Source: Acidobacteriota bacterium (lineage in GTDB: Bacteria > Acidobacteriota > Terriglobia > Terriglobales > Acidobacteriaceae). From it: 64,000 bases of DNA. The notes under the pieces were generated by a model that saw nothing but the letters and a program-made list of their open reading frames with translations, did not search any database and was not told where the DNA came from. Position numbers and translations under genes: made by a program. The stretch spans positions 1 through 64,000 of the forward strand of contig JABCZC010000002.1 in assembly GCA_013289875.1 (NCBI GenBank). The letters are read 5' to 3'. Shown piece by piece: positions 24,432-39,622 of this stretch; the first letter of the stretch is position 1, and each line of letters begins with the position of its first letter.

Positions 24432-25910
24432 ATGCCTCTGAAAACGCTGTTTCTGAATCCCCCTTCGTTCGAGAATTTTGATGGCGGCGCGAGTTCGCGC
24501 TGGCCCGCGACCCGCGAAATCGAGTCGTATTGGTACCCGGTCTGGCTGGCTTATCCGGCGGGTATGCTGGAAGGCTCCAAACTGCTCGATGCACCTCCCC
24601 ATCACGTTTCGGCGGAGGAGACGATCGAGATTGCCAAGGGTTACGAGTTCCTGGTGCTGTTTACCAGCACTCCGGGCTGGACGGGCGATCAGAAGCTGGC
24701 CGAGGCGATCAAGCGGGCGAACCCTTCGATCCGCATTGCTTTCGTCGGGCCGCCGGTGACGACCTCTCCCGACCGCGCGCTGAACGAGTGCCCGGTGATC
24801 GACTTTGTCTGCCGCCGCGAGTTCGACTTCTCAGTCGTGGAGTACGCGAATGGCAAGCCCCTCGACGAGATTCTTGGCATCAGCTATCGCAAGAATGGCT
24901 CGATCGCGCATAATCCAGACCGGCCGCAGGTGGAAGATCTCGATGCGATGCCGTGGGTGACCGACATCTACGCCCGCGACATGGATGTGACCAAATACAA
25001 CGTGCCGTTCCTGTTGCATCCTTATGTGTCGCTTTACTCGACGCGCGGATGCCCGGCGCAGTGCACTTTCTGCCTGTGGCCGCAGACGTTGAGTGGGCAT
25101 GCATGGCGCAAGCGGTCAACGGATGATGTTGCGGCGGAGATGGCCCACGCGAAGAAGCTCTTCCCGCATGTGAAGGAATTTTTCTTCGACGACGATACGT
25201 TCAACATTCAGAAGGCGCGCACAGTTGAACTTTGCGCCAAGCTAAAACCGCTGGGTCTGACGTGGTCCTGCACTTCGCGCGTGACTACGGACCGCGAGAC
25301 GCTGAAGGCGATGCGCGAAGCAGGCTGCCGTTTGCTGATCGTCGGTTTCGAGTCGGGCGATCCGCAGATTCTGAAGAACATTAAGAAGGGCGCAACCGTC
25401 GAGCGGGCGCGGGACTTTACGCGCGACTGCCACGACCTCGGCCTGACGATTCATGGGGACTTCATCCTGGGACTGCCGGGCGAGACGAAGGAATCGATTC
25501 GCAACACAATCAACTTCGCCAAGAGCCTGGACGTCGAGACGATCCAGGTTTCGATTGCGCACGCTTATCCGGGCACAGAGTTCTACGATTACGCGAAGGA
25601 GAACGGCTTCATCGTCAACAACGGGCAGATGGTCGATGAGGAAGGCCATCAATTGGCGCACATCGAGTATCCCGGACTGCCGAAGGAATATGTGCTGGAA
25701 ATGGTGCATCGGTTCTATGACGAGTACTACTTCCGGCCGAAGGCCGCGTGGCGCGTGGTGAGCAAGGCGATCGTGAACCGCGACCTGAAGCGGCTGTATG
25801 CGGAGTCGAAGTCGTTCCTCAAGCTGCGCGCGCAACGGAACAAGGTTGTGAAGAACGCGAAATCGCAGGCTACGACGGAGTCTACGACACCGGCTAACGT
25901 TGGAGCGTAG
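24432..25910 (+). CDS. hpnJ: Hopanoid biosynthesis-associated radical SAM protein HpnJ
   Basis: Radical SAM enzyme with an N-terminal B12-binding-like domain, 492 residues. The [4Fe-4S] cysteines are Cys207, Cys211 and Cys214 in STRGCPAQCTFC. The FFFDDDTFNI and GFESGDPQILKNIKKG segments are typical of the B12-binding radical SAM group. The opening LKTLFLNPPSFENFDGGA and CLWPQTLSGH are as I recall for HpnJ. Genetic work in Burkholderia links HpnI, HpnK and HpnJ to converting BHT glucosamine into BHT cyclitol ether. HpnI and HpnK are not adjacent here. The Lys/Ala/Thr-rich C-terminal tail is probably disordered. A strong terminator follows the gene. Confidence 0.88.
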   Translation: MPLKTLFLNPPSFENFDGGASSRWPATREIESYWYPVWLAYPAGMLEGSKLLDAPPHHVSAEETIEIAKGYEFLVLFTSTPGWTGDQKLAEAIKRANPSIRIAFVGPPVTTSPDRALNECPVIDFVCRREFDFSVVEYANGKPLDEILGISYRKNGSIAHNPDRPQVEDLDAMPWVTDIYARDMDVTKYNVPFLLHPYVSLYSTRGCPAQCTFCLWPQTLSGHAWRKRSTDDVAAEMAHAKKLFPHVKEFFFDDDTFNIQKARTVELCAKLKPLGLTWSCTSRVTTDRETLKAMREAGCRLLIVGFESGDPQILKNIKKGATVERARDFTRDCHDLGLTIHGDFILGLPGETKESIRNTINFAKSLDVETIQVSIAHAYPGTEFYDYAKENGFIVNNGQMVDEEGHQLAHIEYPGLPKEYVLEMVHRFYDEYYFRPKAAWRVVSKAIVNRDLKRLYAESKSFLKLRAQRNKVVKNAKSQATTESTTPANVGA

Positions 25911-26829: not shown

Positions 26830-28689
26830 TCAACGCCAGGGATGGTGAGCGCCATCGGAGAGAGCGCGATCGAGGTACGTGGCTGCGCTGATCAGTGCGA
26901 GGTGCGTGAATGCTTGCGGGAAATTACCGAGGTGTTCTCCGCTTGAGCCGAGTTGCTCGGAATAGAGTCCAAGGTGGTTAGCGTAGCCAAGCATTTTATC
27001 GAATAGCAGGCGTGCCTTTTCGAGCTGATGGGACCGGGCAAGACACTCAATAAACCAGAATGAGCAGGCGGTGAAGCTGCCTTCGCTTCCGCTCAGGCCA
27101 TCTACTGGGTCGCTGATGTTGTTGTAACGGTAGACCAGGCTGTCCTCCGTAAGGTTTTTCTCGATGGCACCGAGAGTCGACAACCAGCGGCGGTCAACCG
27201 GACTGATAAAGCGCATGAGCGGCATGAGCAGGACGGATGCATCAAGCGTCTTGGAACCTTTGTACTGAACGAAAGATTTCAGGTCTTCACTCCAAAAGTT
27301 GGTGAAGATGTCTTCATAGATCGTGTCGCGAATTTCACGCCACTTTTCAACCGGCGCGGCGAGAGAACGCTTGTCGGCAAGGCGGATGGCGCGGTCGAAG
27401 GCGACCCAGCACATGAGACGAGAGTGAAGGAATTCACGGCGGCCCCCGCGGACTTCCCAGATGCCTTCGTCGGGGCGATTCCAGTTTTTTGCAAGCCAGT
27501 CTAGGATGCGCTGGAGGTTGTGCCAGCCGTCATAGGAGACACCGTCGCCATACTTGGCGGCGAGGTACACAGCATCCATGAGTTCGCCATAGATATCAAG
27601 CTGGAGCTGTTGGTATGCGCCATTACCGATGCGGACCGGCCGCGAATTCTTGTAGCCGGAGAGCGAGTCGAGAATGATTTCGTCGAGTTCCTGACGCCCA
27701 TCAGGGTGATACATGACTTGCAACGGTCCGTGCTCGGCGTCTTCGTGCAGGCGGTCGCGAATCCAGCCTGTGAAGGCCCGGGCTTCCTCCACGAAGCCCA
27801 GGCGCATAAAAGCGTACAGACTGAAGGATGAATCGCGGAGCCAGGTGTAGCGGTAATCCCAATTGCGCTCGCCGCCAACCTGTTCGGGCAGGCCGAAGGT
27901 GGGCGCGGCGACGAGCGAGCCGTGCTCGGCGCTGCAGAGCAACTTGAGCATGAGTGCGGAACGGTTGACCATTTCACGCCAACGGCCGGTGTAATTGGAG
28001 CGGCTGATCCAGGACCGCCAGAAGCGCGAAGTTTCCTTAAAATGCTCATCGACATTGGCGGGGTCGAGGACGGCGGCTCCAGTTTTTTCCTCTTCATCGA
28101 CCTGGCCGAAGGCCAGCGTAGCGCATTCTCCCGCGCCGAGCGTAAAGGTGGCGGTTGCATCACTCCCTTCGATCTGCAGGGGGAAGGTTGCGTGCAGGGC
28201 CATGCTGGGGCAGTCCTGCGACTCGGGCGCGAAGCAGATGGATCCCTGTTCGTTGTGCACAGCGTGCCCGGATCGCGCATAGTCGAAGCGCGGGGCGCAG
28301 CGCATCTGGAAAGTGATCCGGCCCTTGATGACGCGCAGCATGCGGAGGATGTGGTGTCCGTAGGGCTTTTTGTCCTTGCTCTCGACGATGGGCATAAAGT
28401 CGGTGATCTCGGCGACGCCTGCCTCCGACAGGAAACGCGTGAGCAGGATGTTGGTGTCCGGCAGGTAGAGCTGCCTGGTATGCAGGTCTTCGATCTCAGG
28501 CGAGATGCGGAGGAATCCGCCCCGCTGCGGGTCGAGGATTGCGGCGAATACGGTGGGCGAATCGAAATTGGGGAAACAGAAGAAATCGATGCTTCCATCG
28601 ACGCTGATCAGCGCGATCGAGCGCATATTTCCGATGACGCCGTAATTCTCAATTGGTTGGAAGCCGGTGGAGTCTCTCGAGTCAGGCAT
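26830..28689 (-). CDS. Glycoside hydrolase family 15 protein (glucoamylase/trehalase-like)
   Basis: Cytosolic GH15 enzyme, 619 residues, no signal peptide. An N-terminal beta-sandwich (about 1-220) begins IENYGVIGNMRSIALISVDG, the standard opening of bacterial GH15 proteins. The (alpha/alpha)6 catalytic domain follows, with GGERNWDYRYTWLRDSSF. General acid Glu408 lies in DEGIWEVRG and base Glu536 in SGSEGSFTACSFW. Members hydrolyse alpha-glucosidic bonds; several actinobacterial ones are trehalases. It follows hpnE by 68 bp, the last gene of the hopanoid operon by position. ATG 28689 is chosen because a longer frame upstream overlaps hpnE in another frame and has no GH15 character. Confidence 0.9.
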   Translation of the reverse strand: MPDSRDSTGFQPIENYGVIGNMRSIALISVDGSIDFFCFPNFDSPTVFAAILDPQRGGFLRISPEIEDLHTRQLYLPDTNILLTRFLSEAGVAEITDFMPIVESKDKKPYGHHILRMLRVIKGRITFQMRCAPRFDYARSGHAVHNEQGSICFAPESQDCPSMALHATFPLQIEGSDATATFTLGAGECATLAFGQVDEEEKTGAAVLDPANVDEHFKETSRFWRSWISRSNYTGRWREMVNRSALMLKLLCSAEHGSLVAAPTFGLPEQVGGERNWDYRYTWLRDSSFSLYAFMRLGFVEEARAFTGWIRDRLHEDAEHGPLQVMYHPDGRQELDEIILDSLSGYKNSRPVRIGNGAYQQLQLDIYGELMDAVYLAAKYGDGVSYDGWHNLQRILDWLAKNWNRPDEGIWEVRGGRREFLHSRLMCWVAFDRAIRLADKRSLAAPVEKWREIRDTIYEDIFTNFWSEDLKSFVQYKGSKTLDASVLLMPLMRFISPVDRRWLSTLGAIEKNLTEDSLVYRYNNISDPVDGLSGSEGSFTACSFWFIECLARSHQLEKARLLFDKMLGYANHLGLYSEQLGSSGEHLGNFPQAFTHLALISAATYLDRALSDGAHHPWR

Positions 28690-28757
28690 GTTCACTAAGC
28701 TTAGATGTGCCGCATGAGAAATGGGATACGAGTTGAGAAGAATTGAGCGAGCGAAAC

Positions 28758-30179
28758 TTAGGAAAACAGGCGCATCAGGCCGGCGGGCGGTAGGTCGGGG
28801 ACGAGAAATTTTTCGACTGCGCCTGCATCGCGGCTCAAAGCTTCGGCGGCAAGGTAGCCACTGCGGACGCCGCTCTCCATCGTGGATGGCCAGCCGGTAG
28901 CTGTCCAGTCCCCGGCGAGATAGATGCCGGGCCACGGGCTCTCCGCGCCGGGACGGATGCGGTCGAGGCGCGGGCGGACAGAATATGTGGCGCGGACTTC
29001 CTTGACCACGGCAGCCTTCACGAGATTCGCTGAATTTACTGACGGGAAAAACTGCGCGAGTTCGCGCATCGCGAGGTCGATGATCTCCTGCCGCTGCATG
29101 GGGACAAGGGATTTCGAGGCGCTGACGACGAGCTCGATATAGTTTTCCTGCTGGTCGCGATGGGCCGGTTGCAGCTTCGACTTGTTGAAGAGCCACTGGA
29201 TGGTCGCGTCGAGCAGGACGGCGTGTTCGAGGTCTGTGATTTCGCGATCGAACCACAAGTGGATGCCTGTGATGGGAGAGTGCTCGAACTGGGCTAGATC
29301 AGCCGCAAGCTGTTTGCTCCCGGCATTGCGGGGCAACGATGGCAGCAGGCCGGCCAGGGCTTCGAAAGAGAGGGCCAGGACCACGGCATCGGATGGAAAG
29401 ATTCGATCGCCGCTGCGGATGATCCAACCGATCTCGGGTTCGGCCATGTCTACCGGCTCGATAGCTTCGACACTGGTGCGCAGGTGTACCTCGCTGCCGC
29501 GTGCGTGGAGATAATCGATCGCACGACCGTACAAGTCGCTGAGGGGAACACTGGGAATGCCCATGCGTCCGGCGTCGGGGGACAAGAGGAACGACTCGCG
29601 AAAAACTTTACCCGCATACTTGATGGAGATGCGGTCGAGATCTTCGTTGAGTGCGCTGACCAGAACGGGATGCCAGAAATGGTCAATGGCCCGCTTCGTC
29701 TGGCCGTGTCGCGCGAGCCAGTGGGCGAAATTCTCGTCGGTGTCGTCGGGGATGCGGGTGAGAAACGCGGACATGCCGCGGGCGATGGCGAACTTGTCGG
29801 AGATTGAAAATGCGGGCGCGTCGAGAAACGCCAGCGACGTATGAAGCGGCGCGGGCAGGAATGACGGCTGAAGCAGGGTGCGGCGTCCGCCCGGCTCGAT
29901 GAAGGTGAAGTGGTCGTACCAGCGGATGGAGTCCAGCGCACCCAGGCGGCGATAGAGATCGATAAGGTTCGTGCATCGGCCGATCAGCACATGCTGGCAG
30001 TTGTCGATCACTTCACCAGTGCCCGGATGCTCATAGGACGAAGCCCGCCCGCCAACGTACGGGCGGCGTTCCAGCAGGCGCACCTTGTGGCCAGTATCCG
30101 CGAGCGCGCAGGCAGCGGAGAGCCCGGCGAGTCCTCCGCCGATGACGGTGACGCTTTGAGGCCCAGCTGTTTCAGTCAT
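28758..30179 (-). CDS. hpnE: Hydroxysqualene dehydroxylase HpnE
   Basis: FAD-dependent enzyme that reduces hydroxysqualene to squalene, the third step of the HpnD/HpnC/HpnE route. 473 residues. The Rossmann dinucleotide motif near the N-terminus is VIGGGLAGLSAACALADTG, followed by the acidic end LLERRPYVGGRASS, typical of phytoene-desaturase-like amine oxidoreductases. The C-terminal FAD contact is PGIYLAGDWTATGWPSTMES. It begins 6 bp after hpnD and belongs to the hpnA-G-MDR-MDR-C-D-E operon. The assignment rests on family features plus the strict linkage to hpnC and hpnD. Confidence 0.93.
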   Translation of the reverse strand: MTETAGPQSVTVIGGGLAGLSAACALADTGHKVRLLERRPYVGGRASSYEHPGTGEVIDNCQHVLIGRCTNLIDLYRRLGALDSIRWYDHFTFIEPGGRRTLLQPSFLPAPLHTSLAFLDAPAFSISDKFAIARGMSAFLTRIPDDTDENFAHWLARHGQTKRAIDHFWHPVLVSALNEDLDRISIKYAGKVFRESFLLSPDAGRMGIPSVPLSDLYGRAIDYLHARGSEVHLRTSVEAIEPVDMAEPEIGWIIRSGDRIFPSDAVVLALSFEALAGLLPSLPRNAGSKQLAADLAQFEHSPITGIHLWFDREITDLEHAVLLDATIQWLFNKSKLQPAHRDQQENYIELVVSASKSLVPMQRQEIIDLAMRELAQFFPSVNSANLVKAAVVKEVRATYSVRPRLDRIRPGAESPWPGIYLAGDWTATGWPSTMESGVRSGYLAAEALSRDAGAVEKFLVPDLPPAGLMRLFS

Positions 30180-30185
30180 GGAGGG

Positions 30186-31136
30186 TCAGTTCCCTGTCCC
30201 TGTCTCTGCAGCGAGGGCGCGGCTGAAAGGAACCTGCAGCAGGCCACGAGCGAGGATCCACAGTTTTTGCCAGGTGGGGACGGAGATTCTTCGCGAGAAG
30301 ACTTCGTAGTTTTGCTGTTGGATGTGTTTGAGCAGGGAGTGATAGATCGCGATCAGAACCCAGAGCGCAGGACGCGAGTCGGGCGAGATGAGCGGCAGCA
30401 GCGCGTGGCCCGATTTGTAATAGTGTTCGGCACGTTCTGCTTCGGCACGCAACAACAGGCGCTCGTTGGGCGCGGGCGAGCGGGGCTTGGCGGCGACGGC
30501 AGCAAGGGCCGGGATGGGTACCGAATAGCGTTCAAGGTCTTCGAGGGGCAGATAGATGCGGCCGCGCTGGAGATCCTCGCGGACGTCGCGCAGGATGTTA
30601 GTGAGCTGGAAGGCGACGCCGGTTTCTTCCGCGAGTTTTTCCGCGCGAGGATCGGTATAGCCGAAGATGCGGATGCAGACGAGTCCAACGACTGAGGCAA
30701 CGAGATAGCAGTAGCGGTAGAGGTCGTCGAAGGTGGCGTAGGTGTCGTACTGCATGTCGCCGGAGCGGGGGGCACGATGCAGATCCATCGCTGTGCCCTC
30801 GACGAGGTGATCGAGAAGTTGGGAGGATATCTGAAAGCGCTGCTGCGCGTCGGCGAGAGCAATGAAGACGGGATCGGTGGTTGAGCCGCCTGACGATGCA
30901 CAGTGCCAGGCTTCGAGCCAGGCGTTGAGACTTGCCTTGCGCTGATCGATGGATAGGGATTCGTCGTCGGAGAGATCGTCCGCGTGGCGCATGAAGGCGT
31001 AGACCGCGCAGATGGCATCGCGCTTGTGCCGGGGCAGAGCGACGAAGGCGTAGTAGAAGTTTTTAGCTTCTTTCCGGGCGATTTCGCGGCAGACTCGATA
31101 GGATTCGTCAACGGATGGGGATGCAGACAGGGTCAC
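30186..31136 (-). CDS. hpnD: Presqualene diphosphate synthase HpnD
   Basis: Trans-isoprenyl diphosphate synthase (squalene/phytoene synthase family) that condenses two farnesyl diphosphates to presqualene diphosphate. 316 residues. The two Asp-rich Mg-binding motifs are DDLSDDE near 52-58 and DVREDLQRGR near 185. YCYLVASVVGL and AFQLTNILRD are hallmark segments. GTG 31136 overlaps the hpnC stop (GTGA), indicating coupling with HpnC, the next enzyme in the pathway. HpnD and HpnC are told apart here by gene order and by the VASVVG form, which is typical of the presqualene-forming member. Confidence 0.9.
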   Translation of the reverse strand: MTLSASPSVDESYRVCREIARKEAKNFYYAFVALPRHKRDAICAVYAFMRHADDLSDDESLSIDQRKASLNAWLEAWHCASSGGSTTDPVFIALADAQQRFQISSQLLDHLVEGTAMDLHRAPRSGDMQYDTYATFDDLYRYCYLVASVVGLVCIRIFGYTDPRAEKLAEETGVAFQLTNILRDVREDLQRGRIYLPLEDLERYSVPIPALAAVAAKPRSPAPNERLLLRAEAERAEHYYKSGHALLPLISPDSRPALWVLIAIYHSLLKHIQQQNYEVFSRRISVPTWQKLWILARGLLQVPFSRALAAETGTGN

Positions 31137-32101
31137 GCCGCTCTCTCCACCCCGCTGTTCGCGAGGTTTCGACCGAGGAATTTGCCGGTGAGGGCGCGCA
31201 GGAGCAGCGCGGCCTTGCGCGATTTGGAGATGCTGGGACGGCTCCGAAGCACGTTGTAGTCCTGCTGTTCGATGGCGCGCAGGATTTCGAGGCCGCCTCG
31301 TGAGAAGAGATCGAGATCGATGGCGAGTTCGCGGTCGACCATCCCGACCAGCGGAAGACCCTGCTCAAACATCCGGCGGGCGTAGTCGACTTCGTACCGC
31401 ATGAGCTCGCGGAAGGCCGGCGTGAATTTTCCGCCGGCGATGGTGGCTTCATCAACGCCGAATCGGCGCATATCTTCGGCGGGAAAATAAATGCGGTCGC
31501 GATCGTGGTAGTCGGTACGAACGTCCTGCCAGAAATTGGCGAGCTGGAGCGCGGAGCAGGTGTGATCCGAAAGTGCGAATCGCTTGGGATCACGATAGCC
31601 GCAGACATAGAGAACAAGATGGCCGACGGGGTTTGCGGAGTATTGGCAATAGCCGAGCACATCGGCCATGGTTTCGAAGCGGGTGATGGTCTGGTCCTGG
31701 CGAAACGCCACGAGCAGGTCGGCAAAGGGTGTTTTGGGAATGTCGCAGGCGCGGATGGTTTCGGCGAGGGCGACGAAGACGGGGTGACGGGCTTCTCCGC
31801 GATAGCAGGCATCGAGTTCCTGTCCCCAGAAATCGAGAAGGGCGAGAGACTGCTCGCGGTTGCCGGTTTCGTCACCCAGATCGTCGGAGACACGGCAGTA
31901 TGCGTAGATGGAATGGAAGTAAGGCCGCAGACGCTTCGGCAGAAACCAGGAGGCGACGTGGAAATTCTCGTAATGCGTCTCGGCTAGGCGCTGGCACCAG
32001 GCGCGGGCTTCGTCGAGCGTGGGAGGGTGCTCAGGGATGCGGTATTCGGGTGGCAGGGCGGCCCATCCGAGCTCGATCAATTGTGCGTTGTCAACGGTCA
32101 T
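31133..32101 (-). CDS. hpnC: Hydroxysqualene synthase HpnC
   Basis: Squalene/phytoene-synthase-family enzyme that converts presqualene diphosphate to hydroxysqualene. 322 residues. The opening PPTLDEARAWCQRLAETHYENFHVASWFLP is as in HpnC. Asp-rich motifs are SDDLGDE and DVRTDYHDRDRIYFP, and LANFWQDV is diagnostic of HpnC in my recall (HpnD has LTNILRDV). ATG 32101 is used: it starts five bases after the upstream dehydrogenase stop, while a longer frame to 32212 runs inside that gene and adds low-complexity residues. Confidence 0.9.
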   Translation of the reverse strand: MTVDNAQLIELGWAALPPEYRIPEHPPTLDEARAWCQRLAETHYENFHVASWFLPKRLRPYFHSIYAYCRVSDDLGDETGNREQSLALLDFWGQELDACYRGEARHPVFVALAETIRACDIPKTPFADLLVAFRQDQTITRFETMADVLGYCQYSANPVGHLVLYVCGYRDPKRFALSDHTCSALQLANFWQDVRTDYHDRDRIYFPAEDMRRFGVDEATIAGGKFTPAFRELMRYEVDYARRMFEQGLPLVGMVDRELAIDLDLFSRGGLEILRAIEQQDYNVLRSRPSISKSRKAALLLRALTGKFLGRNLANSGVERAA

Positions 32102-32106
32102 TGACT

Positions 32107-33159
32107 TCAGGGGATGATCGCGGTCTTGATGTCGCTGGAGCGATTCATCAGGCGTCGGAGCACGCTGTCGAGTTCCGATAATCGCGCGTGGCCGGTGATG
32201 TATTCGCGGCATTTGAACTGGCCGCTGCGGATGAGGTCGAAGGCGCGTCGGGCGGTGGCCGGGGTGTGGTGGAAGCTAGCCTTGAGAGTTATGTCGTTGT
32301 AGTGGAGACGGTTGGTATCGAGGTCGACGCGGGTTCCGGCGGCACATCCACCGAAGAAGTTTACCGTGCCGCCTTTGCGCACCATGTCCACTGCCCATTG
32401 CCAGGTGGTGGGCGTAGCGACGGCCTCTACGGCGACATCGACGCCGCGATGTCCGGGCGTGAGGGCGCGGACAGCGGCGATAGGATCGGCAGCGGCTGTG
32501 ATCTGGATAACGTGTTCGGCGCCGAAGGTGCGCGCGGCGGAGATCTGGCGGTTGCGTTTGACGACCGCGATGACGTGCAGGCCGGCCAGCTGGGCGGCGT
32601 GCATGAACATCAGGCCGATCGGGCCGCCTCCAATCACAACGATTGAGTCGCCGGGCTCCGCGTTTGATTCTTCGAGACCGCGGACGACGCAGGCCAGCGG
32701 TTCAGTAAGAGCCGCGTGTTCGAAGGGGATGGAATCTGGCACGAGGAGGGTGTTCTTCTCGACGATGCGGCGGGGGATGGAGATGAATTCGGCGTAGGCT
32801 CCGTTGTTGAAAAGCAAGTCGTCGCAGAGATTCTGCTGGTTGCGGAGACAGAAATAGCAATCGTCGCAGGGCGCGGAGTTAAGAGCGACGACACGGTCAC
32901 CCACTTTGAATCGAGTGACGCCGGGTCCGACTTCGTGGACAATGCCGGAGAGTTCGTGGCCAAAGGCCATGGGCACGGTGAGCATCCGCGCGTGATAGCC
33001 GCGGCGGTAGACCTTAAGGTCCGTTCCACAGGTGAGCGCGGCCTGCACGCTGACGATGATCTCCCCCAGACCCGCAATGGGCATAGGGAGACGCTCGATG
33101 CGCACATCTTCGCGGCCGTACAAGACAGCGGCCGTCATTTCCTGGACCATTACTTGCAT
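32107..33159 (-). CDS. Zinc-dependent medium-chain dehydrogenase in the hopanoid operon (second of pair)
   Basis: Medium-chain alcohol/polyol dehydrogenase (MDR), 350 residues, of the sorbitol/threonine dehydrogenase type. Catalytic zinc ligands are in CGTDLKVYRRG and FGHE. The structural-zinc cysteines are in CDDCYFCLRNQQNLC. The Rossmann motif is VIGGGPIGLMFMHAAQLAG. The gene lies between another MDR and hpnC with 5-25 bp gaps, so it is part of the hopanoid operon. Start choice: ATG 33159 avoids overlap with the preceding gene; ATG 33141 (MTAAVLYG) and 33210 are alternatives. The substrate is not known. A role in hopanoid side-chain redox chemistry is inference from position. Confidence 0.88.
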   Translation of the reverse strand: MQVMVQEMTAAVLYGREDVRIERLPMPIAGLGEIIVSVQAALTCGTDLKVYRRGYHARMLTVPMAFGHELSGIVHEVGPGVTRFKVGDRVVALNSAPCDDCYFCLRNQQNLCDDLLFNNGAYAEFISIPRRIVEKNTLLVPDSIPFEHAALTEPLACVVRGLEESNAEPGDSIVVIGGGPIGLMFMHAAQLAGLHVIAVVKRNRQISAARTFGAEHVIQITAAADPIAAVRALTPGHRGVDVAVEAVATPTTWQWAVDMVRKGGTVNFFGGCAAGTRVDLDTNRLHYNDITLKASFHHTPATARRAFDLIRSGQFKCREYITGHARLSELDSVLRRLMNRSSDIKTAIIP

Positions 33160-33184
33160 TTTCTCAACCTGCGACGTACCAACT

Positions 33185-34309
33185 TCAGCTTTCTGCCGCG
33201 CCCGCCTCAATGAAGACTTTCATTGAGCTGGCGCTGGGGTTGGAGGCGACTTCGATAGCCTCGACTGCATCTTCGAGAGGATAACGATGCGAAATCAGGC
33301 GGGTGAGGTCGAATCCGTTGAAATATCCGTTGAAGACAAGGTCCTCCACCTCGTCCTGAATCGCGACCGATGAACTGTACGAACCCACAAGCGATTTTTC
33401 GTCCATGCAGATGACGGCGGGGTCGATGCTGACGCTGCCGTGCTGGGTCTGGGCAAAGAGGAGAATGCGGCCTCCGGGACGGGCTGCGTCGATCGCCGTC
33501 TGAATGAGAGCGTTGCCACCCACGGCAAGAATGACCGCGTCAGCTCCGCGGCCGTCGCTGGCGGAACAGGCGGCGGCAATTACGTCTTCTTTTCCGGCGT
33601 GGATGGGGTGCGTAAGGCCGTAATTGGCAGCGATGGCGTGGCGCTCGGGGTAAAGATCGGAGGTAAGCACTTTTGCACCTGATCGCGCGGAGAGCGCGGC
33701 GAGCAGAATGCCGATGGGGCCTTGGCCGATCACCAACACGGTTTCATCGGGCAAGAGCGCCAGGCTTTTCACTCCCTTGAGGCAGGTGTTGACAGGTTCA
33801 ACGAAAGCGGCTTGCTCAAAGGGGATGCCATCGGGAATTTTGATAAGGCCGCGGCGCACGATCCAGTCCCTGACGTGGACATACTCGGCAAAGCCGCCGC
33901 CAGCGGGCTCGAAGCCGGCGGTACATCCAACGTGCTTGTACGCGGGGCATTGGGCGAAGGTCTTTTTCCGGCAGTAGTAGCAATCTCCGCAGGGAACGTG
34001 ATGGAAGACCATGACACGGTCGCCGATGGAGAAGTTCTCAACACCCTCACCAACAGCGGCGATTGTCCCGGCGGTTTCGTGGCCAAAGATGCGCGGGGCG
34101 GAATGCGAGCCAGTGTGGATCTTCTTGAGGTCCGTACCGCAGATGCCGCAGGCGGCGACCTGGATGAGAACTTCGCCAGTTTCGATGGATGGGACAGGGA
34201 CGGTTTCAACACGGACGTCATTGATGCCCCGGTAGACCGCAGCGCGCATGGTTGCGGGAATCCTGGTCTGAGCGGCTTGGGTATTAGCGGTATAAGTAGT
34301 AGCCATCAT
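33185..34309 (-). CDS. Zinc-dependent medium-chain dehydrogenase in the hopanoid operon (first of pair)
   Basis: MDR-family alcohol/polyol dehydrogenase, 374 residues. Catalytic zinc site CGICGTDLKK with GHETAG; structural zinc CGDCYYCRKKTFAQC; Rossmann loop VIGQGPIGILLAALSARSG. It is clearly related to the next gene in fold and motifs but diverged, so this looks like an old duplication or two recruited enzymes rather than a recent copy. It starts 3 bp after hpnG ends. The order hpnA-hpnG-MDR-MDR-hpnC places both enzymes directly after the phosphorylase that produces a ribosyl-hopane derivative. Substrate unknown. Confidence 0.88.
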   Translation of the reverse strand: MMATTYTANTQAAQTRIPATMRAAVYRGINDVRVETVPVPSIETGEVLIQVAACGICGTDLKKIHTGSHSAPRIFGHETAGTIAAVGEGVENFSIGDRVMVFHHVPCGDCYYCRKKTFAQCPAYKHVGCTAGFEPAGGGFAEYVHVRDWIVRRGLIKIPDGIPFEQAAFVEPVNTCLKGVKSLALLPDETVLVIGQGPIGILLAALSARSGAKVLTSDLYPERHAIAANYGLTHPIHAGKEDVIAAACSASDGRGADAVILAVGGNALIQTAIDAARPGGRILLFAQTQHGSVSIDPAVICMDEKSLVGSYSSSVAIQDEVEDLVFNGYFNGFDLTRLISHRYPLEDAVEAIEVASNPSASSMKVFIEAGAAES

Positions 34310-34312
34310 CCT

Positions 34313-34990
34313 CTATAGATTACGGGATTGGAGCTGGGATTTCGAGAGCAACCGGGCAAGATTCGACGCAGCGACGCCGCTGTTCTTGCCGAGCCGCGCA
34401 AGTGCACGCCAATAACCCGGATGAAGCGCAGCATAAGTCAGGAAGGCTGGCATGCGAAGCTGGCCACTTTCGGAGATGAAGCGGCTGAAGTCGGGGAGAT
34501 GGTCGGTGTATCCATCGGAGATTCCTTTGAAGCAGTAGAAGGCAATGTCGCTCGCGGCTGCCAGGCGGGCGACAGCGGCTGCTTCCATATCCACGAGGAC
34601 GGCCTGATGCCTTTCCGCAAGAGTCCGCTTTTCATCGGCGTGCGCAACGTGATCGAGGGTGACGAGGCGAATCCCATCCGCGGATCGCGTGGCAAAATGT
34701 TCGCCGCTGGCGTGGTCAACGATCTCGGAGATGGCATACGCACCAGGCGGCTTGAGGGCGCAGGTAAGGGCTCCGGCCCATCCGTAGGAGATGAGCATGT
34801 CAGGTTTGCCCTGCGCATAAACGCGCTCAACGGCATCGGCTGCTGCGGCAGCTCCCATGCCTCCGACGATGGCGACTGCTGCGTGGCCCTTGATGGTTCC
34901 GGTCCACAGGTTCCGTTCGGAACGATGCCAATCGTGCACGAGAGGTTTAAGTTCGCCCGGCAGGGCAGCAATGATGGCGATCCGGCTCAT
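34313..34990 (-). CDS. hpnG: Hopanoid-associated phosphorylase HpnG
   Basis: Nucleoside phosphorylase-like enzyme, 225 residues. HpnG removes adenine from adenosylhopane, giving (phospho)ribosylhopane on the way to bacteriohopanetetrol. It opens SRIAIIAALPGELKPLV, as in MTA/SAH nucleosidase relatives. Also visible are the SYGWAGAL loop, the purine-nucleosidase-type VDMEAAAVARLA and FKGISDGYTDHLPDFSRF. ATG 34990 is ten bases after the hpnA stop. A longer frame to 35191 lies within hpnA and has no family similarity. Confidence 0.88.
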   Translation of the reverse strand: MSRIAIIAALPGELKPLVHDWHRSERNLWTGTIKGHAAVAIVGGMGAAAAADAVERVYAQGKPDMLISYGWAGALTCALKPPGAYAISEIVDHASGEHFATRSADGIRLVTLDHVAHADEKRTLAERHQAVLVDMEAAAVARLAAASDIAFYCFKGISDGYTDHLPDFSRFISESGQLRMPAFLTYAALHPGYWRALARLGKNSGVAASNLARLLSKSQLQSRNL

Positions 34991-35000
34991 CGGTGCGGGC

Positions 35001-35990
35001 TCATGGGGCGTATCCGTTCGCGCGGAACCATTCGATGGCGGCGCGCAGAGCTGGGTAGACCGGGACGATGCGGAAGCCGAGTTCGCGCTGGGCCTTGGCG
35101 GATGAGGCGAACATCTTTTTCTTGCCCATGCGGACGGCTTCGACCGTTGCTCGGGGTTCGAGGCCGCGGATACGTCCTGTGATGTTTTCATCGAAGAAGG
35201 CGAAGATCATCGCCACGGCGTGCGGGACGCGCATGGTCGGCGAAGGCAGGCCCGTGATGGCGGACATCTTGTCGAGTATCTGCTTGAGGGTGAGATTTTC
35301 TCCGCCTAGAATATAGCGCTCGCCGGAGTGGCCTTTCTCGAGGGCGTCGGCATGGGTGCGGGCGACCTCGGCGACATCGACCAGATTGAGTCCGGTGTCG
35401 ACATAGGCCGGGAACTTCTTATTCAGAAAGTCGACAATGATGCGCCCGGTGGGAGTGGGTTTTACGTCCATGGGACCGATAGGCGTGGTGGGGTTGAGGA
35501 TGATGACCTGCTGGCCGGTTCGGGCGGCTTCCATCGCGACTTGTTCCGCGAAAAACTTCGAACGCTTGTAGTGACCAACCATGTCGGCGAGCGAGACAGG
35601 CGTGGTTTCGTCGACGATGGTGCCGTCGGTTTTGAAGCCCATGGTGGCGACGCTGGACGTGTAGACGGTGCGAGGCACGGCTTCTTCACGGGCAATCTGA
35701 AGCAGGGCGCGGGTTCCGTCGACGTTGGCGGCATACATTGTCTTAGGATCGCGGACCCAGAGGCGGTAGTCCGCGGCTACGTGCATCACGGCGTCGCAGC
35801 CCCGGATCGACGTGCGAAGCAATTCGGGCTGGAGGAGATCGCCAACGATCATTTCAGCCTGGAGACCTTCAAGGTTTCGCAGATTGCTGGTGGGGCGGAC
35901 GAGGAGCCGCAGTTGCGCGCCCCGTTGTGCGAGTTCACGAGCTACATGCGTTCCGACGAATCCGGTGGATCCGGTGAGGAAGACTTTCAT
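35001..35990 (-). CDS. hpnA: Hopanoid-associated sugar epimerase HpnA
   Basis: Extended SDR of the NAD-dependent epimerase/dehydratase family, 329 residues. N-terminal FLTGSTGFVGTHVARELAQRG and the early VGDLLQPELLRTSI, AADYRLW and SSVATMG segments match HpnA. The catalytic pair is Tyr-Lys in HYKRSKFFAEQ and the end contains EWFRANGY. Its precise role in hopanoid metabolism is not established. It is first in the operon, divergent from a radical SAM gene across about 130 bp, so the operon promoter should lie in 35991-36119. Confidence 0.92.
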   Translation of the reverse strand: MKVFLTGSTGFVGTHVARELAQRGAQLRLLVRPTSNLRNLEGLQAEMIVGDLLQPELLRTSIRGCDAVMHVAADYRLWVRDPKTMYAANVDGTRALLQIAREEAVPRTVYTSSVATMGFKTDGTIVDETTPVSLADMVGHYKRSKFFAEQVAMEAARTGQQVIILNPTTPIGPMDVKPTPTGRIIVDFLNKKFPAYVDTGLNLVDVAEVARTHADALEKGHSGERYILGGENLTLKQILDKMSAITGLPSPTMRVPHAVAMIFAFFDENITGRIRGLEPRATVEAVRMGKKKMFASSAKAQRELGFRIVPVYPALRAAIEWFRANGYAP

Positions 35991-36119: not shown

Positions 36120-37148
36120 ATGGCATCGACTCTCATTCAGCTTTCGGCAACTCCTGCCGCGCAGCTTGCCCAGCACGTGATCGAGCATTTGCCTGTCGTC
36201 GTGCTGTTTCCCCACAACCGCTGCAACTGCCGGTGCGTGATGTGCGATATATGGCGGATCAGGCAGGTACGGCAGATCGAGACGGCGGATCTTCTGCCGC
36301 ATCTCGAGTCGTTTCGTTTGTTGGGCACGCGGTGGATCACGCTGTCAGGCGGCGAGGCGCTGCTCCATGACGATCTGCGGGGATTGCTGGAGTTGCTGCG
36401 CGACCAGGGGATGCGCATCACGCTGCTGTCGACTGGGCTTCTACTGGCGGACAACGCGGCGTTGGTAGCGGAGCTTGTGGATGACGTGATTGTGTCGCTC
36501 GACGGACCAAGGGTAACGCACAACGCAATCCGGCGGGTTCGCGATGCGTATGAACAGATGTCGACTGGTATCGTGGCGCTGCGGGCGGTGCGGAAGGACA
36601 TGCCGGTATCGGCGCGGAGCACGGTGCAGAAAAATAACTTCCGTGAACTGTCCCGAACTGTAGAAGCGGCGCGGGAGCTGGGGCTGAATTCGATTTCGTT
36701 TCTGGCGGTGGACGTGACCTCGACAGCTTTCAATCGCGAGGATGGATGGAATGTCAGCCAGCAGTCGCGGGTGACGCTGACGAGTGAGGAAGTGGATGAG
36801 CTTGAGGCTTGTCTTGACCGGATGTGCACCGACTATGCGGAAGAGTTCCGGAGCGGGTTCATTCAGGAGTCTCCCGAGAAGATGCGGCGGATTGTAAGGC
36901 ATTTTCGCAGCGCGCTGGGCGAGGCGGAAGCCGTGGCTCCGAAGTGCAATGCGCCGTGGGTTTCCGCCGTGGTGGAGAGCGACGGGAGCGTACGGCCCTG
37001 TTTCTTTCACCCGGCCATTGGCAATTTTTACGAGCAGCCGCTAGCGGAGATCGTGAACGGCGAGGCCGCGCTCCGGTTTCGCGCCGGGCTCAATATAGAG
37101 CGCGATGCGGTATGCCGGAAATGCGTCTGCTCACTTTATCGCGCGTAG
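36120..37148 (+). CDS. Radical SAM/SPASM domain protein divergent from hpnA
   Basis: 342 residues. The radical SAM cluster ligands are Cys35, Cys39 and Cys42 (CNCRCVMC). The SAM-binding LSGGEALLHDDL and IVSLDGPR segments follow. The C-terminal SPASM-like half has cysteines in PKCNAPWVSAVV, GSVRPCFFHP and CRKCVCSLY, suggesting an auxiliary Fe-S cluster. SPASM enzymes usually modify peptides or carry out other radical chemistry. It is not HpnH, which has a different cysteine context and C-terminus. It is divergently placed to the hopanoid operon and followed by unrelated genes. The substrate is unknown. Confidence 0.82.
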   Translation: MASTLIQLSATPAAQLAQHVIEHLPVVVLFPHNRCNCRCVMCDIWRIRQVRQIETADLLPHLESFRLLGTRWITLSGGEALLHDDLRGLLELLRDQGMRITLLSTGLLLADNAALVAELVDDVIVSLDGPRVTHNAIRRVRDAYEQMSTGIVALRAVRKDMPVSARSTVQKNNFRELSRTVEAARELGLNSISFLAVDVTSTAFNREDGWNVSQQSRVTLTSEEVDELEACLDRMCTDYAEEFRSGFIQESPEKMRRIVRHFRSALGEAEAVAPKCNAPWVSAVVESDGSVRPCFFHPAIGNFYEQPLAEIVNGEAALRFRAGLNIERDAVCRKCVCSLYRA

Positions 37149-38177: not shown

Positions 38178-39500
38178 TTAATCGTAATATTCGAGGCCCA
38201 GGTGGGTGATGAGCTCTTCGCCCCGAATGTGGCGGAGGGTGTTCTTCAGCTTCATGGACTGGATGAAGAGGTCGTGCTCGGGATAAAGTCCGGGTGCTGT
38301 CTGGGGCGACTTGAAATAGAAGCTGAGCCACTCCTGGATTCCGAGGTGCTTGAGCTCTGGGGTGCGCTGAGCGAGGTCAAGGAAAAGGACAAGATCGAGG
38401 GCCAAAGGCGCGGCCAGAATGGAGTCGCGGCAAAGGAAATCGACCTTGATCTGCATCGGATAGCCGAGCCATCCGAAGATATCGATATTGTCCCAACCTT
38501 CTTTGTTATCACCGCGTGGCGGGTAATAGTTAATGCGAACCTTGTGGTAAATATCCTTGTAAAGGTCAGGGTAAAGCTCGGGCTGGAGGATGAAATCCAG
38601 GACACCGAGTTTTGATTCCTCCTTGGTTTTGAAGGACTCGGGGTCGTCGAGGACTTCGCCGTCCCGGTTGCCGAGAATGTTGGTGGAATACCAGCCGGCG
38701 ACTCCCAGCATGCGCGACTTGAAGGCGGGGGCGAGCACGGTCTTGATGAAGGTTTGGCCGGTCTTGAAGTCTTTGCCGCAGATAGGCGCTCCGGTGAGTT
38801 TGGAGAGCTCGATCATGCAGGGCAGATCAACGGTCAGATTGGGCGCGCCGTTGGCGAAGGGAACGCCTTCCTTGAGCGCAGCGTAGGCATAAATCTGCGA
38901 CGGAGCGATGTTTGGGTCGTTGTCAACGAGACCCTTTTCGAAGGCGGCGACTGATTGGTGAACGGCCGAAGGCTCGAGAAAAATTTCGGTTGAGCCAGTC
39001 CAGATCACTACTACGCGCTCTACCTTTGACTTGAAGCTTTGAATGTCGGCGATGAGCTGCTGGGCGAGGTCGCACTTGCTCTTGCCTTGCTTAACGTGGG
39101 TGCCATTGAGCCGCTTGACGTAGTGCCGGTCAAAGACGGCGGGCATGGGCCTGATCTCTTCGAGAAAGGGCCGAATGCTCTTCAGGTGATCGCTGTCCAG
39201 CACCTGGGCATGCGCGGCGGCCTCGTACATGTTGTCGGGGAAGATTTCCCAACCGGTGAAGACAATATCGTCTAGAGACGCGAGCGGGGCAAAATCCTTG
39301 ATCAGGGGCGTGCGATTGTCCGTGCGCTTGCCGAGGCGGATGGTGCCCATCTGGGTGAGCGAACCGATCGGCTTGGCCAGGCCTTTGCGGACCGCTTCGA
39401 CACCAGCGATCAGCGTGGTGGCGACGGCTCCCATGCCGACCACCATAACTCCAAGTTTTCCATTAGGTGGCTGAATGTTCGCAGCCTTCGGTGTAGACAT
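38178..39500 (-). CDS. ino1: myo-Inositol-3-phosphate synthase
   Basis: Converts glucose-6-phosphate to 1L-myo-inositol-1-phosphate with NAD as internal redox cofactor. 440 residues. The N-terminal NAD loop is VMVVGMGAVATTLIAGVEAV. Other visible synthase elements are GWEIFPDNMYEAA, VIWTGSTEIF, APNLTVDLP, the LTGAPICGKDFKTGQT active-site block and NILGNRDGEVL, all expected of the Ino1 family. The length suits the longer bacterial type. ATG 39500 has AGAGGAC 11 bases upstream; the ATG at 39521 adds seven residues. In bacteria the product feeds inositol phospholipids or soluble inositol compounds. No inositol phosphatase or CDP-alcohol transferase is adjacent. Confidence 0.93.
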   Translation of the reverse strand: MSTPKAANIQPPNGKLGVMVVGMGAVATTLIAGVEAVRKGLAKPIGSLTQMGTIRLGKRTDNRTPLIKDFAPLASLDDIVFTGWEIFPDNMYEAAAHAQVLDSDHLKSIRPFLEEIRPMPAVFDRHYVKRLNGTHVKQGKSKCDLAQQLIADIQSFKSKVERVVVIWTGSTEIFLEPSAVHQSVAAFEKGLVDNDPNIAPSQIYAYAALKEGVPFANGAPNLTVDLPCMIELSKLTGAPICGKDFKTGQTFIKTVLAPAFKSRMLGVAGWYSTNILGNRDGEVLDDPESFKTKEESKLGVLDFILQPELYPDLYKDIYHKVRINYYPPRGDNKEGWDNIDIFGWLGYPMQIKVDFLCRDSILAAPLALDLVLFLDLAQRTPELKHLGIQEWLSFYFKSPQTAPGLYPEHDLFIQSMKLKNTLRHIRGEELITHLGLEYYD

Positions 39501-39622
39501 TCTTACTGGTCGTCCTCTCAATCGAAATAATGCGCGTGCGCAAACACTCTAGTGTCGCCTTGGAGGAAGAGCTTTGGCAAACGAGAGGGACTCAAGTGGC
39601 GGATTTCCGGGTTCAAACGGGC

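Follow-up and report, generated by a model that had tools for sequence, protein, structure and literature searches.

What do two zinc-dependent dehydrogenases do in the middle of a hopanoid operon? The question is raised by a window of 64,000 nucleotides from an Acidobacteriota bacterium of the family Acidobacteriaceae (assembly GCA_013289875.1, contig JABCZC010000002.1, positions 1 to 64,000). Its hpnA-hpnG-MDR1-MDR2-hpnC-hpnD-hpnE genes form a single operon on the minus strand, MDR1 and MDR2 encoding zinc medium-chain dehydrogenases (MDRs). An earlier note on this DNA had proposed that the two enzymes supply missing redox steps of the hopanoid side chain. We found that the pair is real, conserved and hopanoid-associated, and that it is not exclusive to hopanoid makers. 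Its function is very probably tied to hopanoids, and we lean towards a site of action on the side chain, after HpnG.

The dehydrogenase pair and its conservation in the family

The layout described in the earlier note was borne out: both genes have intact zinc sites and lie closely spaced between hpnG and hpnC, with gaps at the likely ATG starts of 3 bp (hpnG/MDR1), 25 bp (MDR1/MDR2) and 5 bp (MDR2/hpnC). The window's genome has 18 ADH_N matches, and MDR1 and MDR2 are the only ones in the hopanoid operon. Because only these two of the 18 are found there and genomes throughout the family share the arrangement, their position is not due to chance.

Conservation was assessed in 150 genomes of the family, covering 79 genera. 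At strict thresholds, MDR1 was found in 141 genomes, MDR2 in 142 and HpnC in 133; the raw MDR1 count was 142, with the match in G116 being its MDR2. In each genome the protein and profile searches scored the 10 to 13 best candidates, so that a weak MDR1 may escape where MDRs are numerous. MDR1 and MDR2 were adjacent on one strand in 128 of the 139 genomes with both; two more pairs were cut by contig ends, and nine, from three genera (g32, g35 and g65), were truly split. MDR2 adjoined hpnC in 126 of 130 genomes, the two genes lying on separate contigs in the other four. In the split-pair genomes MDR2 was beside hpnC in all nine, and MDR1 followed hpnG in all four with an MDR1 locus read (L029, L030, L031 and L037). 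The loci of Edaphobacter modestus (L133) and Granulicella aggregans (L134) read ispH-shc-hpnH-hpnA-hpnG-MDR1, with no MDR2 within the locus. Co-loss in G007, G008 and G104 was first read as evidence for linkage and is now regarded as neutral: Shc and HpnH are retained in G008 and G104, from which hpnG, MDR1, MDR2, hpnC and hpnD are absent together, losses for which one missing block would account.

Both proteins showed Pfam ADH_N and ADH_zinc_N domains above cut-off, which places them in the zinc MDR superfamily. Each protein of the window has the catalytic Cys, His and Glu, an additional Glu and the four Cys of the structural zinc site. Zinc ligands were conserved over 137 different MDR1 and 121 different MDR2 sequences, a Cys-to-Arg change in one MDR1 being the sole exception; matches with less than 40% identity, fewer than 300 aligned residues or an internal stop were excluded from this survey. 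In MDRs, the residue that closes the second Rossmann strand and its neighbour generally tell the coenzyme, an acidic residue there being of NAD(H) type. At this site, read 23 residues past the first Gly of GxGxxG, MDR1 was acidic in 137 of 137 sequences (Asp in 135, Glu in 2; Asp218 in the window). MDR2 had Val, Gly or Ala in 118 of 121 and Asp in three; the next position was Lys, Arg or Asn in all 121, and Arg came after that in 105 (Val200-Lys201-Arg202 in the window). These residues suggest that MDR1 uses NAD(H) and MDR2 uses NADP(H).

Predicted structures had a mean predicted local distance difference test score (pLDDT) of 91.1 for MDR1 and 92.4 for MDR2. A fold search with the models returned many MDRs at low specificity, with 4ej6/4ejm, of unknown function, at the top. 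By sequence profile, the best PDB match of both proteins was 1e3j, an NADP(H)-dependent ketose reductase, and polyol (xylitol, galactitol-1-phosphate and sorbitol), threonine and other alcohol dehydrogenases came close behind; the nearest solved relatives of both are therefore polyol or ketose enzymes, at modest specificity. Like the sorbitol dehydrogenase/ketose reductase branch (1e3j, 1pl6 and 7y9p), MDR1 and MDR2 have the same fold in the models and the same catalytic and structural zinc sites, but they are only 23-29% identical to these enzymes where listed, each family keeps conserved residues of its own, and their substrate, unlike that of the branch, would be a lipid. The best NCBIfam families were the scyllo-inosose 3-dehydrogenase IolM (NF041097; 161 bits for MDR1, 154 for MDR2) and L-threonine 3-dehydrogenase (TIGR00692; 158 and 150 bits). 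Both identities were rejected, the scores being far under the cut-offs of 450 and 458 bits.

A plasmid search with MDR1 returned only relatives of 37% identity or less. An MDR2 relative, 46.5% identical, was seen on the Rhodococcus opacus plasmid pLPS8 (L150:10001-11050). It is the sole good match outside the hopanoid-linked groups and sits in a sugar-use cluster with a DeoR regulator, an FGGY kinase, a class II aldolase and an MFS transporter.

Association with hopanoid genes across lineages

Beyond the family, contigs were scanned with an MDR1 alignment headed by the protein of genome G210, and the best 80 of 527 relatives were kept. Proportions among these 80 loci are no census, because the loci are ranked by likeness to the G210 protein. 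The pair was present in 74 of the 80, and an hpn or shc gene lay within the locus in 70; of the ten loci without one, L118 spans just 3.2 kb and the genome of L079 carries HpnH. Among the 68 loci with enough sequence, 50 had hpnA or hpnG immediately upstream in the same orientation, and hpnC or hpnD came directly downstream of the pair in 59 of the 67 with room. In L062, from another acidobacterial family, shc-hpnH-hpnA-hpnG-MDR1-MDR2-hpnC-hpnD-hpnE form a single run. A reductase was also sought after hpnG where the pair is missing; in L056, L060 and L065 a type 2 isopentenyl diphosphate isomerase gene was found there instead. Linkage with hpn genes is conserved across lineages. The association for which the earlier note had suggested a survey was found, as gene order in Acidobacteriota and as co-occurrence with HpnH in Armatimonadota.

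Samples of 159 Acidobacteriota and 201 Armatimonadota genomes (the latter being the phylum of G304) contained MDR1 in 21 and 24 genomes, HpnH in 37 and 44, and both in 20 and 20, respectively. The 44 comprise 43 matches above cut-off and G483, counted as positive despite a partial match under it. Among the Armatimonadota, HpnH was present in 20 of 24 genomes with MDR1, four of which (G365, G480, G498 and G501) are known from short loci only, compared to 24 of 177 genomes without MDR1. The pair and hpnH were on separate contigs in 19 of the 20 doubly positive genomes and about 73 kb apart in the remaining one; operon linkage therefore does not explain their co-occurrence. Four Armatimonadota had MDR1 and no HpnH: G313, with no MDR2 in the region read; G480, with an MDR1 match of 34% identity and no MDR2 in a short locus; and G342 and G420, with the pair beside hpnCDE.

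Near hpnH, hpnG was seen in 8 of 10 MDR1-positive and 2 of 10 MDR1-negative Armatimonadota loci (Fisher p 0.023, phylogeny ignored). This small, non-random comparison covers 10 of the 20 MDR1-positive and 10 of the 24 MDR1-negative genomes with HpnH; hpnG was counted in the stretches around hpnH, and the rest of each genome lies outside it. The MDR1-negative set was chosen from the highest HpnH scores, L201-L207 possibly represent a single lineage, and L202 stops 0.8 kb past hpnA. The difference in hpnG suggests that presence of the pair tracks ribosylhopane synthesis in Armatimonadota. The association with hpnG and hpnH that the earlier note had suggested checking was thus seen in Armatimonadota (20 loci read for hpnG), although many HpnH-positive genomes have no MDR1 match.

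Loci L201-L207 show shc-hpnH-hpnA with no hpnG in the stretch read, the rest of these genomes not having been searched for it, hinting that these Armatimonadota may make hopanoids ending at adenosylhopane.

Candidate reactions and competing explanations

We propose that MDR1 and MDR2 would be co-inherited zinc enzymes of polyol-dehydrogenase type acting on the ribose-derived C31-C35 hopanoid side chain, once HpnG has removed adenine. MDR2, of NADP(H) type, would be the reductase that forms bacteriohopanetetrol (BHT) from ribosylhopane or from a keto derivative of it. MDR1, of NAD(H) type, would be a polyol dehydrogenase of that side chain, with C-34, the counterpart of C2 in a pentitol, as its most likely site. 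The observations behind this are the intact zinc sites, the split in coenzyme motifs, the operon linkage and the co-occurrence with HpnH and, in a small sample, with hpnG; coenzyme use, substrate, direction and the filling of the unassigned step in these lineages are what we infer. The whole assignment is tentative and less likely than not, though it is our best explanation; the narrower claim that one of the two MDRs reduces ribosylhopane to BHT is plausible, if still short of probable. For side-chain redox after HpnG, the leading candidate reactions are ribosylhopane reduction and redox or epimerisation at C-34. Ribosylhopane has to be reduced for BHT to form, and an NADP-type reductase next to an NAD-type polyol dehydrogenase would suit reduction at C-35 combined with redox at C-34 as well as epimerisation at C-34. 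Reduction of ribosylhopane to BHT, the same reaction as proposed here, was reportedly obtained by Bodlenner et al. in 2015 in a cell-free system from Methylobacterium organophilum.

Enzymes of the sorbitol dehydrogenase type prefer the carbon next to a terminal alcohol, C2, and interconvert polyols and ketoses, not aldoses. The earlier note's argument from the interconversion of aldoses and polyols was therefore inexact, and the preference for the carbon beside the terminal CH2OH, which in BHT is C-34, favours C-34 chemistry and weakens the aldose argument.

The gene linkage is partly known since 2017, with no function assigned. Sinninghe Damsté et al. described an acidobacterial gene ug1 after hpnA-hpnG (cluster C) and a gene ug2 before hpnC-hpnD-hpnE (cluster A), ug2 often carrying the annotation of a Zn-binding alcohol dehydrogenase some 350 amino acids long, and gave no function for either in the parts of the paper used here (PMC5462960). 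By position, ug1 is MDR1 and ug2 is MDR2; in the same parts, ug1 is not described as a second MDR, and the coenzyme split and the Armatimonadota are not mentioned (PMC5462960). One statement there places ug2 in all subdivision (SD) 1 and 3 acidobacteria and another has it absent from SD3 clusters (PMC5462960); our locus L110, titled Bryobacterales, has both MDR genes in the cluster. The earlier note's statement that no enzyme has been assigned to the conversion of ribosylhopane to BHT still holds, as a 2025 paper calls it not established (PMC12583986). That paper, a study of Alphaproteobacteria, saw no evident candidates close to the hpn cluster except hpnA, B, L and M (PMC12583986). Open-access literature naming ribosylhopane, as far as it was covered and with subscription journals mostly outside its scope, contained no assignment of the reductase.

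Several observations weigh against a role for the pair on the side chain after HpnG. MDRs of the sorbitol dehydrogenase type usually have C2 ketones, not aldoses, as substrates. With HpnH as a proxy for C35 hopanoids, no MDR1 match was found in 17 of the 37 HpnH-positive Acidobacteriota and 24 of the 44 HpnH-positive Armatimonadota; G238 and G264 are among the HpnH-positive genomes without one. The pair was on this basis rejected as a universal BHT reductase, and other BHT makers must use something else. Eight acidobacterial genomes from those behind the 80 loci (G298-G303, G305 and G307) carry the pair with no HpnH or Shc match (E 1e-20), and five of them are also without an HpnC/HpnD match. 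In the UBP4 genome G306 (L085), MDR1-MDR2-hpnC-hpnD-hpnE were found with no Shc match and no HpnH above cut-off. Strict hopanoid exclusivity of the pair was rejected on account of these nine genomes. Gene order also varies. In eight of the 80 loci (L076, L109, L111, L114, L115, L130, L132 and L143) the shc/hpnA/hpnG run lies some kb upstream in the opposite orientation, and it is MDR2-hpnC, not hpnG, that MDR1 accompanies. Of 20 long Armatimonadota MDR1 regions, 7 show hpnC-hpnD-hpnE after the pair, and no hpnG was found there. From these two arrangements, position alone could also suggest a role at the squalene stage. In f27-type genomes and in L103, L105, L113, L144 and L147, hpnA-MDR1-MDR2 precede hpnC or hpnD with no hpnG between; there was no clear HpnG elsewhere in the f27-type genomes and L103, and none in G311. 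The proposal that the MDRs are the missing side-chain redox enzymes therefore keeps its hopanoid linkage, and is weakened by the eight genomes without HpnH and Shc and by the many HpnH genomes without the pair.

Operons with hpnA-MDR1-MDR2 and no intervening hpnG also include L066, L068 and L069. The HpnG-like proteins of the f27-type genomes score about equally against HpnG, methylthioadenosine/S-adenosylhomocysteine (MTA/SAH) nucleosidase and futalosine hydrolase, and given these ambiguous family scores no firm call of HpnG was made. UBP4 locus L085 combines squalene genes and the pair in a genome with apparently no hopanoids.

The pair could instead form a two-enzyme epimerase, in which MDR1 would oxidise the C-34 hydroxyl of BHT with NAD+ and MDR2 would reduce the ketone from the other face with NADPH to give 34R BHT, the aldehyde being reduced by another enzyme. 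MDR1 and MDR2 occur nearly always together and have opposite coenzyme types, relatives of the 1e3j type act beside a terminal CH2OH, and a tailoring step would be expected to be less than universal in HpnH genomes, as the pair is. Both 34R and 34S BHT are found in bacteria (PMC12583986), but the published acidobacterial work used Rohmer degradation (PMC5462960), a procedure that shortens the chain and would thereby be blind to C-34. We regard an epimerase as unlikely, though a serious candidate. Much the same standing falls to reduction of ribosylhopane by HpnA, with the pair as an unrelated or accessory redox step. HpnA, a protein resembling short-chain dehydrogenases/reductases (SDR-like), was suggested for this reaction by Sinninghe Damsté et al. 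(PMC5462960), and its gene is beside hpnH also where MDR1 is unmatched (L054, L055, L057-L060, L065 and L201-L209); as cited in the same paper, however, Burkholderia cenocepacia does not need hpnA to make BHT, and the gene is absent from some producers of BHT, Rhodopseudomonas for example (PMC5462960).

Somewhat less likely again is a passenger in hopanoid operons that belongs to general polyol or sugar metabolism (e.g. ribose-ribitol-ribulose, with NADPH and then NAD+). The pair's presence without HpnH and Shc matches and the sugar cluster around the R. opacus relative of MDR2 would fit a passenger, as would nucleoside phosphorylases some kb from the pair: L071 and L067 have a pyrimidine-nucleoside (thymidine) phosphorylase and L071 also a purine-nucleoside phosphorylase, with QueF and proline dehydrogenase between these and the pair. 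Co-occurrence with HpnH in Armatimonadota without physical linkage argues against it, as does the persistence of the MDRs beside hpnG or hpnC in broken-up operons. A tree of 65 concatenated pairs, moreover, could take in seven of the HpnH- and Shc-negative acidobacterial genomes, and these fall into a single clade with G210, whose HpnH and Shc are above cut-off and whose HpnG-like match is below. The tree holds 65 of 104 concatenated rows, similar acidobacterial loci having been thinned to every fourth; L070, whose MDR2 is cut by a contig end, was left out, and the root is not fixed. One lineage may thus have kept the pair after losing hopanoids; recruitment of the pair into hopanoid operons is a possible alternative. 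A role at the squalene stage with HpnC, HpnD and HpnE would agree with the proximity of MDR2 to hpnC or hpnD in the 80 loci and with the pair-hpnCDE order in Armatimonadota and UBP4. We consider it improbable: these three enzymes cover the route from farnesyl diphosphate to squalene (cited in PMC5462960), where no alcohol dehydrogenase is needed, and G196 and G238 have HpnC/HpnD-type matches and no MDR1 match. The earlier note had also suggested that one MDR could act in cyclitol or other head-group oxidation, and hpnJ is nearby in the window and in other loci. This idea fared worst and is very improbable, as adjacent hpnJ-hpnK genes (L050 and L053, HpnK above cut-off) occur in genomes without an MDR1 match (G196 and G238) and SD1 and SD3 acidobacteria are reported without hpnK (PMC5462960), the window's own genome not having been searched for it.

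Other genes of the locus and significance of the pair

The names of HpnG and HpnD rest on best hit and position, because their NCBIfam scores are under cut-off. The shc and hpnH genes of the window's draft genome are on a different contig.

Features of the hopanoid locus and its neighbours in the window (ORF, open reading frame; aa, amino acids)
Feature	Positions	Strand	Remarks
hpnJ, radical SAM enzyme of BHT cyclitol ether synthesis	24432-25910	+	NCBIfam 770.2 bits, above cut-off; downstream of operon
Two small EamA-type membrane proteins, 145 and 169 aa	25993-26825	+	directly after hpnJ
Glycoside hydrolase family 15/trehalase-like protein	26830-29256	-	same strand, after hpnE; GTG-started ORF overlaps hpnE, probably over-extended
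hpnE, hydroxysqualene dehydroxylase	28758-30179	-	NCBIfam 497.8 bits, above cut-off
hpnD, presqualene diphosphate synthase	30186-31136	-	best NCBIfam match, 246.7 bits (cut-off 278.6)
hpnC, squalene synthesis	31133-32101	-	NCBIfam 358 bits, above cut-off; ORF as listed extends to 32212, likely ATG at 32101
MDR2, zinc medium-chain dehydrogenase, 350 aa from ATG	32107-33159	-	directly before hpnC; NADP-type; alternative TTG-started ORF reaches 33210 and would overlap MDR1
MDR1, zinc medium-chain dehydrogenase, 374 aa	33185-34309	-	directly after hpnG; NAD-type
hpnG, putative adenosylhopane nucleoside phosphorylase	34313-34990	-	best NCBIfam match TIGR03468, 83 bits (cut-off 187); ORF as listed extends to 35191, likely ATG at 34990
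hpnA, hopanoid-associated sugar epimerase (SDR-like)	35001-35990	-	NCBIfam 496 bits, above cut-off
Radical SAM/SPASM protein	36120-37148	+	divergent from hpnA, 129 bp apart; above no cut-off among 25 NCBIfam families shown
myo-Inositol-1-phosphate synthase	38178-39521	-	Pfam 338 bits; about 2 kb upstream of hpnA

The EamA-type pair after hpnJ, which we take to resemble the ArnE/ArnF flippases, is a candidate flippase for composite hopanoids. Of the 24 fetched loci showing an hpnJ match, 22 had homologues, the hpnJ-hpnK loci L050 and L053 among them.

Bacteriohopanepolyols are widely used biomarkers, and the MDR pair gives concrete candidate genes for an unassigned step in the formation of BHT. 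A negative outcome would still point to a new step, or to a general polyol module captured by hopanoid operons. The pair might also be a two-coenzyme side-chain module, in which oxidation by MDR1 with NAD+ and reduction by MDR2 with NADPH would together set the redox state and C-34 stereochemistry of BHT. We think this unlikely at present; if true, the BHT isomers used as geochemical biomarkers would gain a genetic marker in Acidobacteriota and Armatimonadota.

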